Origin: Thermoplasmatales archaeon SM1-50
Lineage (GTDB): Archaea > Thermoplasmatota > E2 > DHVEG-1
Assembly (NCBI GenBank): GCA_001595945.1
Contig: LSSI01000075.1
Span: 1-34,885, forward strand
Reading direction: 5' to 3'
DNA: 34,885 nt
The translations under genes were made by a program, and so were the position numbers. The notes under the pieces were generated by a model. It was not told where the DNA came from and did no database searches. It saw nothing but the letters and a program-made list of their open reading frames with translations. Below are positions 4,163-18,664 of the stretch, in pieces (the first letter of the stretch is position 1; every line of letters starts with the position of its first letter).

Positions 4163-4393
4163 ATGGTGATTAACCTGGGTAACATAAGACAGACGCACAT
4201 AAAAAATGTCGCAATTGACTTAGTAAAGAAATATCCAGATCAGTTCTCTGGTGATTTTCAGAACAATAAAGCGAAGGTAGACACGCTGACAACAGTTAAT
4301 AGTAAACTATTACGAAATCGAATAGCTGGATATATCACTCGATATGTAATTTCTCGAAGTAAGTCAAAACCAAGTCGACCCATTTCTGAGTAA
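4163..4393 (+). CDS. rps17e: 30S ribosomal protein S17e
   Basis: GNIRQTHIKNVAIDLVKKYPDQFSGDFQNNKAKVDTLTTVNSKLLRNRIAGYITRYV matches S17e; the usual N-terminus (M-G-x-I-R-Q) would place initiation at CTG 4175 rather than ATG 4163 (see findings). Confidence 0.9.
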   Translation: MVINLGNIRQTHIKNVAIDLVKKYPDQFSGDFQNNKAKVDTLTTVNSKLLRNRIAGYITRYVISRSKSKPSRPISE

Positions 4394-4445
4394 CATCCCA
4401 ATATTTATTTTATAGCCTGATCTATTCTTTGACGGTGACGTAACT

Positions 4446-5119
4446 ATTACAATACAAGATGCTATCAAATCACTTCAAAAAGGACGTTTTATTCTTATCT
4501 ATGACAACGACTCTCGAGAAAGCGAAACAGACCTTGTCATGGCCTCTCAATATGTAACCCCAGAAGCGATCAAGCAAATGCGTAAAGACGGGGGTGGACT
4601 TATCTTTCTGATGATATCCTACCCTGCTGCACAGAAACTACAACTTCCGTTTCTTGCCGACATGTTTTCTCAAATAAACACTCAATACCCTGTTCTTAAA
4701 GCACTTACCCCAAATGATATCCCCTATGACACAAAATCATCTTTCTCCCTGTATATCAATCATCGGAAGACATTTACCGGAATCACCGACAATGACCGTA
4801 GTCTAACCATGAAACGATTCGCAAATCTAGTCACAGCGACTAAAAACAACGACAGTACCCTGGCTATTCAAGCCTTTGGAAAAGAATTCAGATCCCCTGG
4901 TCATGTCCCTATTTGCATCGCCTCAGAAAAACTGCTTAACGAGCGAAAAGGTCATACGGAGCTTGTGATTTCATTACTTGAAATAGCTGGTCTTACCCCA
5001 GTTGGAAGCGGCTGTGAAATTATGGGAGAATACGGTAAAGCATTACCAAAAGAAGATGCAAAAAAATACGCTGAAAAAAACAACCTTGTCTTTCTTGAAG
5101 GAAACGACATCATTAAAGC

Positions 5120-5141
<22 letters not shown>
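4446..5141 (+). CDS. ribB: 3,4-dihydroxy-2-butanone 4-phosphate synthase, apparent non-ATG start (ATT 4446 proposed)
   Basis: The tracked ORF (4539) begins mid-domain; in-frame upstream sequence gives TIQDAIKSLQKGRFILIYDNDSRESETDLVMASQYVTPEAI, the conserved RibB N-terminus. Downstream NDIPYDTKSSFSLYINHRKTFTGITDNDRSLT, GKEFRSPGHVPI and KGHTELVISLLEIAGL are typical archaeal RibB. Confidence 0.88.
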
Positions 5142-6051
<910 letters not shown>

Positions 6052-6073: not shown

Positions 6074-6496
6074 ATGGCGAAAGAAACAATTCGAATCGGA
6101 GCGGTCGTCTCTGATTTCAACTACGACATCACTATGATGATGTTCGAACGGGCAAATGAACACGCGGAGTTTTTAGGGGCGGAGATTACAAAGGTAGTAA
6201 AAGTCCCAGGAGTCTTTGATATGGGCCTTGCTGTCAAGAAATTACTTGAAAGGAAGGATATCGATGGTGTCATCACGATTGGAGCGGTAATTGAAGGGGA
6301 GACCGAGCACGACGATCTGGTCATACAACATGCTGCTAGGAAGATCGCTGATCTTGCGTTACAATACAACAAACCGGTTGGTCTTGGAATCTCCGGACCA
6401 GGAATGACACGACTCCAAGCAGAGGACCGTATCGAACGAGGAAAATCAGCGGTTGAGACAGTCGTCAAGCTGCATCAACGATTACAAAAAATCTAA
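6074..6496 (+). CDS. ribH: 6,7-dimethyl-8-ribityllumazine synthase
   Basis: IRIGAVVSDFNYDITMMM, VPGVFDMGLAVKKLLE, GAVIEGETEHDDLV; strong SD GGAGGT just upstream. Confidence 0.93.
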   Translation: MAKETIRIGAVVSDFNYDITMMMFERANEHAEFLGAEITKVVKVPGVFDMGLAVKKLLERKDIDGVITIGAVIEGETEHDDLVIQHAARKIADLALQYNKPVGLGISGPGMTRLQAEDRIERGKSAVETVVKLHQRLQKI

Positions 6497-6679
6497 CACT
6501 CATGTCGTTAATCACAAGCGACTGCATTATTTATCCATTAATCGACTTGTAAGACCAATTCATCAGGGACGACATGTTCAAGATCATAGGTAGGAAAAAG
6601 TATTTAAGTAGAGTTTTTCATGGCAGGTTGCAATAGAGAATAATGGTTGCAAAGAAAGTGTAAAAAACGAGGGAATGTA

Positions 6680-6928
6680 ATGGTTAAGATTAATGTTACA
6701 ATCGAAGGGGAAAATATCTCAGATATTGTAAATGAACTTTTACATGTCGGAATTGACTTACTTAAGGCAAACAGAAAAGAGCTCCGAGAAGTGTTAAAGA
6801 TTCTTGCCGATGAATCATTAGAACTCCTTAATGAAAAAAAGACACTGGAAAAAGGAGCAGAATTGTACAGGAAAATCAATTCTGAGATTAACTGGACATA
6901 TAAACGAGATAGAGAGAAAGGGGCATAA
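6680..6928 (+). CDS. Small uncharacterised protein (about 82 aa, helical, charged)
   Basis: ORF from ATG 6680 (MVKINVTIEGENISDIVNELLHVGIDLL...), with TATA-like 'gtatttaag' about 80 nt upstream. Confidence 0.5.
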   Translation: MVKINVTIEGENISDIVNELLHVGIDLLKANRKELREVLKILADESLELLNEKKTLEKGAELYRKINSEINWTYKRDREKGA

Positions 6929-15508: not shown

Positions 15509-17359
15509 TTATAAAGGATTGGTGAGCGGAAACCAATCAACGTTTATCCAGAAGAAAGAAAAGTTGTCTATTCTGATTTTCCCAGGGATAACACAAGGAA
15601 GGTACCGTGGTTTATCCCAGTAGTTCTGATACCAGTGATGGCGCCCATGCGTGATGGACGTTCCATAGTAAAACGCGTTTATTTTGAAGCTCTGTAAACT
15701 ATTATACGAAATAGTCACATCTGTGCTGAAAAATATTCGTATGCCATAGACATTATCTTGAAATGAATTCTTTGAAATGGTCAGTAAATCACAACCATTC
15801 TGCACCGAGACACCATGAAGTCCGCTGCCAATGATATTTCCAGTGATAATTGTGTAAGATGAATGGTTAATTAGGATATTGAAATGACCATTATAAATGG
15901 TAAAATTATTGACCGTGACATAATCAGCACAAATAGTTATGATATCCCGTGTTCCATTTCCTTCAAGGATTGTTGTAGTTTTCTCCTCAGCAGTCAAACG
16001 AAGAGGTTTGTTGATGATAACAGTCTCATAATATGTGCCGTTGAATACGTAAATGGTATCGTTTTGTTGCGCATCGTCGATTGCGGCTTGAATGGAACTG
16101 TAGTTATTTGGACCGTTGCCTCCGACATACCGGATTGTGCCATCATTAGTAAGGTATTGTATATTTGTAGAACGAGGAGGATTTCGTAAAGGAGTCCAGT
16201 CAACATTCATCCATGAAAGGGTGATTTTTTCTAGCTTAATGTAACCAAAAATTGGGTAAGGTAGTATTCGCGCTCGTTCCCAATAATTCAACTTCCAGAT
16301 ATTTCGTCGAGTGACAACCGTATGAGCAACAAAGCATCCGTTCATCTTGTAATTCCTAAGATCGTTGTTCTGAATGATGTTCCCTGCCGAATCCTTTAGA
16401 TAAATGCCATTGTCATTGTCCAATATTGTGTTGTTTGTTATTTTGGTATCAAAAGAGGATTCAAGGAATATACCGACATCAATATTGCCCAGGACACTGT
16501 TTTTATTTATGATGCTAAATGTCGTATCTTTCAACCAAAGTCCATACCAGCGGTTCCATGCTATCGTGTTTGCTTCAATAATGATCTCTGAGGAATTGTA
16601 TACGTAGATTCCGTTTGCATTGTTATCTATATCATTCCCCAAGAGAATAAGATCATAGCAATTTTCCATATGGACGCCAAGCCCTTTGTTGACAACGGTG
16701 TTGTTCTGGATTTTGGAAGTAGCCAAACCGATAATATACAATCCCTCTAAGTTGTCATATATGGTATTTGCTATGATAGCAACTTTGGAGAGTTGTCGAA
16801 GACATAGTCCATAGGAATTGTTACAGATGATGTTCGAATCAATCGTCACCTGGGAGGTGCCAGACGACTGAGCAGAAATCCCAAACCAACCATTATCTCT
16901 GATAATGTTCTGGGTGATAACAACATTACTAATAGCATCTATTACTACACCAGCAGAGTGGATATCGTTTTTTGCATGCTGCACGGTGAATCCCTGAAAC
17001 ACCGTATCATGAGCTGAAATTCCGACAACTGTGCCTTCCTCTTTTGCATCAATAATCGTGGTATTTTTGTCCTCACCGGTTAATCGAATTGATGTTCCAA
17101 TATGAATAGTTTCTTCATACAAACCATGAAAGACGAACACGGTGTCTCCGTTTGTTGCGTTATCAATCGCATCCTGGATTCTTGAGTAATTCCCAGGACC
17201 TGAACCTCCTACGTACAGGATAGTATCATTGACTACTGCGGCATAAGACATCTGGGATGGTTTGTTCGTTGCTAATGTAGGAAGACAATACAAAGACGAA
17301 CAGAAAAGACATACCATAGTAAATATTTCTAATCGTGGGAATGATGATTTCATGAACAA
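15509..17359 (-). CDS. NosD/right-handed beta-helix (CASH domain) secreted protein, duplicated architecture; start possibly 17353
   Basis: Signal peptide; two copies of 'YVGGxGPxNYSxIQxAID' plus parallel beta-helix repeats (ITGNIIGSGLHGVSVQNGCDLLTISKNSF). Confidence 0.85.
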   Translation of the reverse strand: MFMKSSFPRLEIFTMVCLFCSSLYCLPTLATNKPSQMSYAAVVNDTILYVGGSGPGNYSRIQDAIDNATNGDTVFVFHGLYEETIHIGTSIRLTGEDKNTTIIDAKEEGTVVGISAHDTVFQGFTVQHAKNDIHSAGVVIDAISNVVITQNIIRDNGWFGISAQSSGTSQVTIDSNIICNNSYGLCLRQLSKVAIIANTIYDNLEGLYIIGLATSKIQNNTVVNKGLGVHMENCYDLILLGNDIDNNANGIYVYNSSEIIIEANTIAWNRWYGLWLKDTTFSIINKNSVLGNIDVGIFLESSFDTKITNNTILDNDNGIYLKDSAGNIIQNNDLRNYKMNGCFVAHTVVTRRNIWKLNYWERARILPYPIFGYIKLEKITLSWMNVDWTPLRNPPRSTNIQYLTNDGTIRYVGGNGPNNYSSIQAAIDDAQQNDTIYVFNGTYYETVIINKPLRLTAEEKTTTILEGNGTRDIITICADYVTVNNFTIYNGHFNILINHSSYTIITGNIIGSGLHGVSVQNGCDLLTISKNSFQDNVYGIRIFFSTDVTISYNSLQSFKINAFYYGTSITHGRHHWYQNYWDKPRYLPCVIPGKIRIDNFSFFWINVDWFPLTNPL

Positions 17360-18531
17360 TCACCTCCCAAGCTAGGAATATCATATGGTTTTACTACAGG
17401 AAACCAATCAAGGTTTATCCATCGAATCACAACCGCTTTATTCCAGGGAACTCTGATTTGCCCCCAGATAATTTTCGGTCCTAACCCATGATGGTCATCC
17501 CAATAATTCCTCTTCCATCGGTTGAAAGAAGAGTTTTCAAAAACAACGTTCTTATTATTGTCTATGAAATTGTTATTCTTGATAAGCGTCCAATTCGCCA
17601 TATTAAGATTTATGCCTTCATTGCTACCTTGAATGTTATTTGACGAGATGATATTACCCCTTGCTTTTGTAATAATGCACCCATACAACGCATTCTGTAT
17701 AAACAGATTATTGTAAATGGAATTATTATTTGCGCTAGGCCAAATTCCCAGTCCGCTATAGGTTTGATTTATTATACTATTGTGTGTAATTTCATTGTCT
17801 GTTGCCCCAGGCCAAAGACTCACCCCAGCGTAGTTATTTTGCATCATATTCTGAATGACGGTATTGTAACTTGATTGTGAAATGACGACTGCACAATGAC
17901 CATTGTGCGTCATTACATTCTCCAGGATAGTCACATTTGTTGATTTCTGAAGAAAAATTCCTTCATTTCCATTTTCTGTGATATAGTTAGCATGAACAAG
18001 GACATTGGATGAACCATTCAGAAGAATCCCTACTCCATACAGGCCGTTCTGAAGAACAACATTCCCCTGAATGACAATCGCATTTGAGCGACATTCGATC
18101 CCTGCATCTACTTTCGGAGTATCTCCGCTGTGCTGAATGGTAAAGGTACTAATTGTGACATCATCTACCATTACTAGGATAACATCGCCATCTCCTTGGC
18201 CGTCAATAACCGTTGTGGTCTGATTTTCCCCAATCAAATTAATTGACTTGTTTACCACGACATTTTCAAAATAGGGAGATGAATGTGCATAGACAAACAC
18301 CGTGTCTCCATCTGTTGAATTGGTGATAGCATCCTGAATCGTTGTGAAATTATTTGGACCAACACCTCCAACATAACGGATAACTCCAGAACAACTCTGT
18401 GATAGTAAAAGACTGTTCGCTATCAGTCCATTTGATGGGGGGAGAGCCATTAACACAGCGAATATTAGTGTACTTACGATTATTGTTTTTTTTATCAGAT
18501 GAATTTCCTCTTTCCATTTATATAGAATCAT
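17350..18531 (-). CDS. NosD/right-handed beta-helix secreted protein
   Basis: RYVGGVGPNNFTTIQDAITNSTDGDTVFVYAHSSPYFENVVVNKSINLIGENQTTTVIDG and repeated NxV..N beta-helix units. Confidence 0.86.
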   Translation of the reverse strand: MILYKWKEEIHLIKKTIIVSTLIFAVLMALPPSNGLIANSLLLSQSCSGVIRYVGGVGPNNFTTIQDAITNSTDGDTVFVYAHSSPYFENVVVNKSINLIGENQTTTVIDGQGDGDVILVMVDDVTISTFTIQHSGDTPKVDAGIECRSNAIVIQGNVVLQNGLYGVGILLNGSSNVLVHANYITENGNEGIFLQKSTNVTILENVMTHNGHCAVVISQSSYNTVIQNMMQNNYAGVSLWPGATDNEITHNSIINQTYSGLGIWPSANNNSIYNNLFIQNALYGCIITKARGNIISSNNIQGSNEGINLNMANWTLIKNNNFIDNNKNVVFENSSFNRWKRNYWDDHHGLGPKIIWGQIRVPWNKAVVIRWINLDWFPVVKPYDIPSLGGDCS

Positions 18532-18664
18532 ATGTTATATAAAATTATTGTCATTTTCATTTTACCAGAGGATGCAAAAGAGTATGAATAACTCTTAGGA
18601 GCAGAGCCCTCATAAGATATTTAATTTGAAAAAGGTAGGTTCTCAGATTAGGTGAATATCTATT

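Follow-up and report, generated by a model that had tools for sequence, protein, structure and literature searches.

Comparative evidence for initiation at AUU in an archaeal ribB gene and at CUG in the adjoining rps17e gene

The window, that is, the whole stretch of 34,885 nucleotides analyzed here, is contig C75 of a 2.09-Mb MAG consisting of 94 contigs (genome G000), which its nearest named relatives place in the class Thermoplasmata. It contains the gene rps17e, followed by ribB and the other genes of a riboflavin cluster (Table 1). The ribB frame is open from 4416 to 5141 (241 codons) and is closed by TAA. Its product is a full-length match to DHBP_synthase (PF00926; E 2.5e-53, 180.9 bits against a curated cut-off of 26.4), and among solved enzymes the nearest is the one from Methanocaldococcus jannaschii (1pvw; E 6e-72, 223 residues aligned). 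The original prediction for this locus held that ribB has no canonical start codon and proposed ATT 4446 as a candidate for initiation. Its codon-by-codon reading was correct: none of the in-frame codons from 4416 to 4538 is ATG, GTG or TTG. The alignment with 1pvw also bears out that a start at the first ATG would remove the acidic metal-binding motif, since DNDSRESETD, which aligns with DSDEREGETD, is retained only for starts before 4503. The motif includes the Glu that aligns with M. jannaschii Glu26, a metal ligand. Residue 13 of the RibB frame aligns with residue 4 of 1pvw, so that the ATT (residue 11) falls opposite 1pvw residue 2, in agreement with the usual RibB N-terminal length that had been claimed for this start.

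Table 1. Features of the rps17e-ribB region and the downstream riboflavin genes, with positions in the window.
Feature	Position	Strand	Basis
rps17e Shine-Dalgarno GGTGA, 5 nt before CTG	4165–4169	+	Sequence; 4–5 nt before CTG in 43/44 family loci
rps17e, encoding ribosomal protein eS17, with probable CTG start 4175–4177	4175–4393	+	PF00833 match; CTG in family
Conserved A/T-rich TATA-like element, putative promoter	4400–4412	+	Column conservation, 37 loci; about 22–34 nt before GGTGA
In-frame TAG bounding the ribB frame	4413–4415	+	Sequence
ribB Shine-Dalgarno GGTGA	4434–4438	+	In 37/44 family loci; complementary to the 16S terminus GGATCACCTCCT in congener G009 and in G031
ribB initiation codon ATT, inferred	4446–4448	+	ATT/ATA position kept in genus, ATA in most of family; matches 1pvw N-terminus
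ribB, encoding a DHBP synthase of 231 aa	4446–5141	+	Pfam match and 1pvw alignment
RibB Glu codon aligned with M. jannaschii Glu26	4518–4520	+	1pvw alignment; lost with start at 4539
First in-frame ribB ATG, within catalytic domain	4539–4541	+	Sequence
Cytidylyltransferase-like gene, probably ribL (FAD synthetase)	5129–5590	+	PF01467; ATG 5129 or GTG 5120
DMRL_synthase-family gene, probably riboflavin synthase ribC	5587–6051	+	PF00885; conserved ATG
6,7-dimethyl-8-ribityllumazine synthase ribH	6074–6496	+	PF00885; conserved ATG

The GTG-x-x-ATG arrangement at the start of the probable ribL gene is kept in relatives. Directly 3' of the riboflavin genes lies a small ORF (6644–6928) without a Pfam match, which is kept in 8 of the 8 congeners compared. 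Elsewhere in the window (15509–18534), two adjacent long ORFs on the minus strand carry repeated GGxGPNNYxxIQxAIxxAxxxDT segments. These ORFs resemble right-handed beta-helix surface proteins, with a strong match in one congener only.

Whole-genome searches identified ribB in 57 of 60 relatives and in all ten genomes of the genus, and the rps17e-ribB pair is common to the whole family. Each ribB locus was oriented, and the codons in frame with the RibB core were read up to its first invariant Asp; the family set comprised 44 loci from 43 genomes, all compared genomes being MAGs from uncultured archaea. Each of the ten species in the genus carries GGTGA and, 4–7 nt behind it, ATT (nine species) or ATA (one species) in the ribB frame, and a canonical codon between the eS17 stop and the RibB core is absent in six of the ten. 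Across the family, where the counts are not probabilities since the loci of one genus are not independent, GGTGA precedes ribB at 37 of the 44 loci, and the in-frame codon after it, at a spacing of 4–7 nt, is ATA (24 loci), ATT (10), ATC (1), ATG (1) or none (1). No in-frame ATG, GTG or TTG is present from the eS17 stop to the first invariant Asp at 11 of the 44 loci, and at 7 further loci the sole canonical codons are located at most 13 codons before this residue. The GGTGA is altered or absent at 7 of the 44 loci, some of which have ATG starts (L017, L020, L022 and L114).

The lack of an NTG codon over 41 codons would by itself be only mildly unlikely; it is significant because it recurs together with GGTGA and AT(T/A) in independently assembled relatives. 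Since Ile is frequently encoded by ATT (39%) and ATA (36%) in these genes, the nature of the ribB codon says less than does the CTG at rps17e. The original prediction had also considered that close relatives might have a canonical codon at or near 4446. At the position itself this is not the case, as the codon is ATT or ATA, but canonical codons do occur nearby: GTG or ATG is found two codons downstream in congeners L002, L003 and L008 (ATG in two of the genus), and ATG is found seven codons upstream in L009, so that canonical ribB starts have arisen here and there.

It is quite improbable that ribB is initiated in the window at a different non-canonical codon, for example ATA 4452 or GTA 4440. 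ATA 4452, which encodes Ile, follows two codons after the ATT, at which distance two congeners have ATG. However, the two candidates lie 13 nt and 1 nt from GGTGA, respectively, and the 4–7 nt of the relatives is found for ATT 4446 only. The spacer between GGTGA and this ATT is exactly the 7 nt originally reported (CGTAACT), which exceeds the usual 4 nt and counts against this start.

The GGTGA behaves as a Shine-Dalgarno sequence and not as code, since its frame shifts relative to ribB and the preceding triplet is unconstrained. Depending on the locus, 68, 69, 70 or 71 nt separate it from the core; its own frame is thus not kept, whereas every AT(T/A) is in the frame of ribB. Directly before the GGTGA stands TTG, ATG, GTG, CTG, TAG, ACG, GCG, CTA, TTA, TCA, GCA, ACA, ACC, GCT or GAC. 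At congener loci such as L002, L004, L006, L007 and L010, an in-frame TGA stop is present at or within the GGTGA or just before the ribB start codon. The 16S rRNA gene was not found in the MAG of the window, and the anti-Shine-Dalgarno sequence was hence read in congener G009 and in G031, where the 16S ends in GGATCACCTCCT, which is complementary to AGGAGGTGATCC. In genera g7 and g12 (L012, L015, L031, L032 and L035) an in-frame TAG directly precedes the ribB GGTGA, and TTG or ATG does so in other genera.

As judged from its sequence, the TATA-like element would start the ribB transcript near the GGTGA, and the leader may be very short. An element at about 22–34 nt before the GGTGA would set the transcript 5' end where leaderless initiation requires it, with the triplet directly before the GGTGA as the start and the GGTGA as codons 2–3 (Gly-Glu). 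This triplet is ATG, GTG or TTG at 16 of the 44 loci, and in those species it could serve as a leaderless ribB start. For the window we consider leaderless initiation quite improbable, because the triplet is GAC here and TAG, ACG, GCG, CTA or TCA in other species, because the GGTGA is out of the ribB frame in several congeners, and because the supposed Glu codon varies (GAA, GAG, GAC, GAT), so that Glu is not conserved.

Within the genus, the share of synonymous substitutions is 0.06 upstream of the ribB start, 0.50 downstream of it up to the core and 0.65 beyond the core. The upstream frame thus changes almost only non-synonymously, whereas the downstream frame is under coding constraint. A RibB made as a fusion, by readthrough or frameshift from rps17e, is highly improbable. 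Although the two genes are adjacent and the ribB frame is open back into eS17 in three congeners, TAA 4391 and TAG 4413 separate them in the window, the upstream frame is without coding constraint, and the stop positions differ freely among species. A sequencing or assembly error or a defective gene, which the original prediction had kept as alternatives and which the fragmentation of the MAG into 94 contigs might favor, can practically be dismissed from the ten independent MAGs, in which canonical starts are likewise missing, the intact full-length frame, the synonymous pattern downstream of the start and the intact riboflavin cluster. Thus, with ATT or ATA in the sister genomes, the comparative data favor the reading originally proposed, in which ribB is initiated at ATT behind the GGTGA.

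Two further observations were not part of the original prediction, namely a CTG at rps17e throughout the family and an unusual initiator tRNA. The eS17 match (PF00833) covers 4178–4387 and begins at profile position 2, adjoining the proposed CTG. The pattern is stricter here than at ribB: this CTG is the first codon of (M)GNI(R/K) eS17 at all 44 family loci, and two additional genomes (L237 and L238) agree, giving 46. At seven loci (L013, L018, L019, L036, L119, L121 and L123) the open eS17 frame contains no ATG, GTG or TTG anywhere. At the remaining Leu positions of these genes CTG makes up only 7.4% of the codons, and each of two further conserved Leu residues of eS17 is encoded by six different codons. 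In sister families the start position is mostly TTG, with GTG in two and ATG in f4, f6 and f8. ATG 4163 and GTG 4166 are in frame before CTG 4175 in the window; they overlap the GGTGA and are without counterpart in most other genera. Several family genomes have extra rps17e paralogues away from ribB (L220–L228 and L208), which start at ATG or TTG, and at CTG in two.

Ordinary starts were observed in the other genes. Those of the window that could be aligned with relatives have a conserved ATG, occasionally GTG or TTG, in essentially all cases. ATG is likewise the start of approximately 25 conserved genes from the S10-spc region, read in six family genomes, with GTG or TTG in rare cases; a clear start column shared by the genomes was lacking for two or three short frames. 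With ordinary starts in approximately 45 other conserved genes, the unusual start is tied to ribB and rps17e and is not a genome-wide habit. No excess of ATA, ATT or CTG behind GGTGA was found in a 316 kb sample plus the window, where GGTGA-led starts are a minority. A self-regulated non-AUG aIF1 gene was ruled out by the conserved ATG start of the family aIF1.

The standard archaeal initiator tRNA motif GGGCTCATAACCC was not found in six family genomes, because position 33 is C. The initiator tRNA of the window genome (L248; G000:C34:4746-4821) reads CGGGCCCATAACCCG, with C33 instead of U33. When 217 genomes from the phylum were scanned, a sample that contained no family f3, the matches listed showed the C33 initiator tRNA in every matched genome of f1, the family of the window (32), and in two genomes of the sister family f2, and T33 in tRNA-like matches of other families. 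The C33 loci are L248, L246, L247 and L253–L259 (families f1 and f2). Analysis by ARAGORN confirmed tRNA-Met(CAT) in examples from f1, f2, f4, f6, f7 and f8. Matches to GGGCCCATAACCC in G147, G131, G106 and G236, which belong to other families, were rejected as tRNA genes by ARAGORN. U33 is retained in the elongator tRNA-Met of the genus. In family f2, C33 is present, yet the rps17e start is TTG (GTG in one), and C33 alone can thus not explain the codons; it is at most permissive.

Based on these comparisons, we consider it likely that ribB is intact, selected and translated from AUU 4446 by Shine-Dalgarno-driven initiation with Met-tRNAi. The GGUGA would pair with the 3' end of the 16S rRNA (GAUCACCUCCU) and place the 30S subunit with the AUU in or near the P site, where Met-tRNAi would initiate in spite of a mismatch at the third base. 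At rps17e, just upstream, an identical arrangement would operate with CUG. The AUU would be read as Met and would support only weak initiation, and C33 may help in the acceptance of near-cognate codons. The non-canonical starts have been kept over many genera beside ATG genes, which suggests that weak initiation is useful, as in infC and sigR. Selection may keep AUU initiation weak, with an output that is low or dependent on start-codon fidelity, as for the AUU of infC and the GTC of sigR. More tentatively, and with considerable doubt, the change from U33 to C33 in the initiator tRNA and the fixed near-cognate starts (CUG in rps17e, AUA/AUU in ribB) might together constitute a heritable device for expression control, in which tRNA structure and start-codon choice have co-evolved.

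The sequence data point to a long-kept, unconventional initiation of RibB and eS17 in the family. Among 36 triplets of close prokaryotic relatives whose genomes were surveyed, no more than a handful of changes to CUG or AUU came to light (PMC5622118). Starts other than AUG, GUG and UUG are usually single oddities, whereas here CUG is kept family-wide and AUA/AUU in most of the family. A report of archaeal AUU, AUA or CUG starts matching this pattern was not found in the open-access literature. Gene finders that accept only ATG, GTG and TTG must, in many of these genomes, misplace the RibB and eS17 starts. Because C33 coincides with these starts, a link between the anticodon loop of the initiator tRNA and start-codon stringency becomes testable in archaea.

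C33 occurs in vertebrate initiator tRNAs. Like these, the archaeal tRNA has the anticodon loop CCCAUAA between three G-C pairs, but the C33 tRNA described here is archaeal and confined, among the matches listed, to f1 and f2. The start codons can be compared with those of E. coli infC (IF3), which starts at AUU and has ATC in Streptomyces (PMC5472188). Both cases involve a conserved non-canonical AUN start codon, used in infC for weak, fidelity-dependent initiation. However, infC is bacterial and its product is a fidelity factor that represses its own synthesis, whereas the genes concerned here encode an archaeal vitamin enzyme and eS17. In archaea, discrimination against non-canonical start codons is exerted by aIF1 (PMC6237735, PMC7531240), and the gene for this counterpart in fidelity starts at ATG in the family. 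Streptomyces sigR has a GTC start that is repressed by IF3, as experimentally proven (PMC5472188). It resembles the present genes in retaining a rare start codon without itself encoding the fidelity factor, and in that annotation usually shifts the start to a canonical codon close by; it differs in being bacterial, with a proven GTC, whereas AUU/AUA and CUG are here deduced from comparison. Finally, the aEF1A mRNA of P. abyssi (GGAGGUGAUUUAAAUG) has the arrangement GGUGA-UUUAA-AUG (PMC6237735), in which GGUGA is likewise located 4–5 nt before the initiation codon; that codon is AUG in P. abyssi and CUG, AUU or AUA in the archaea analyzed here.
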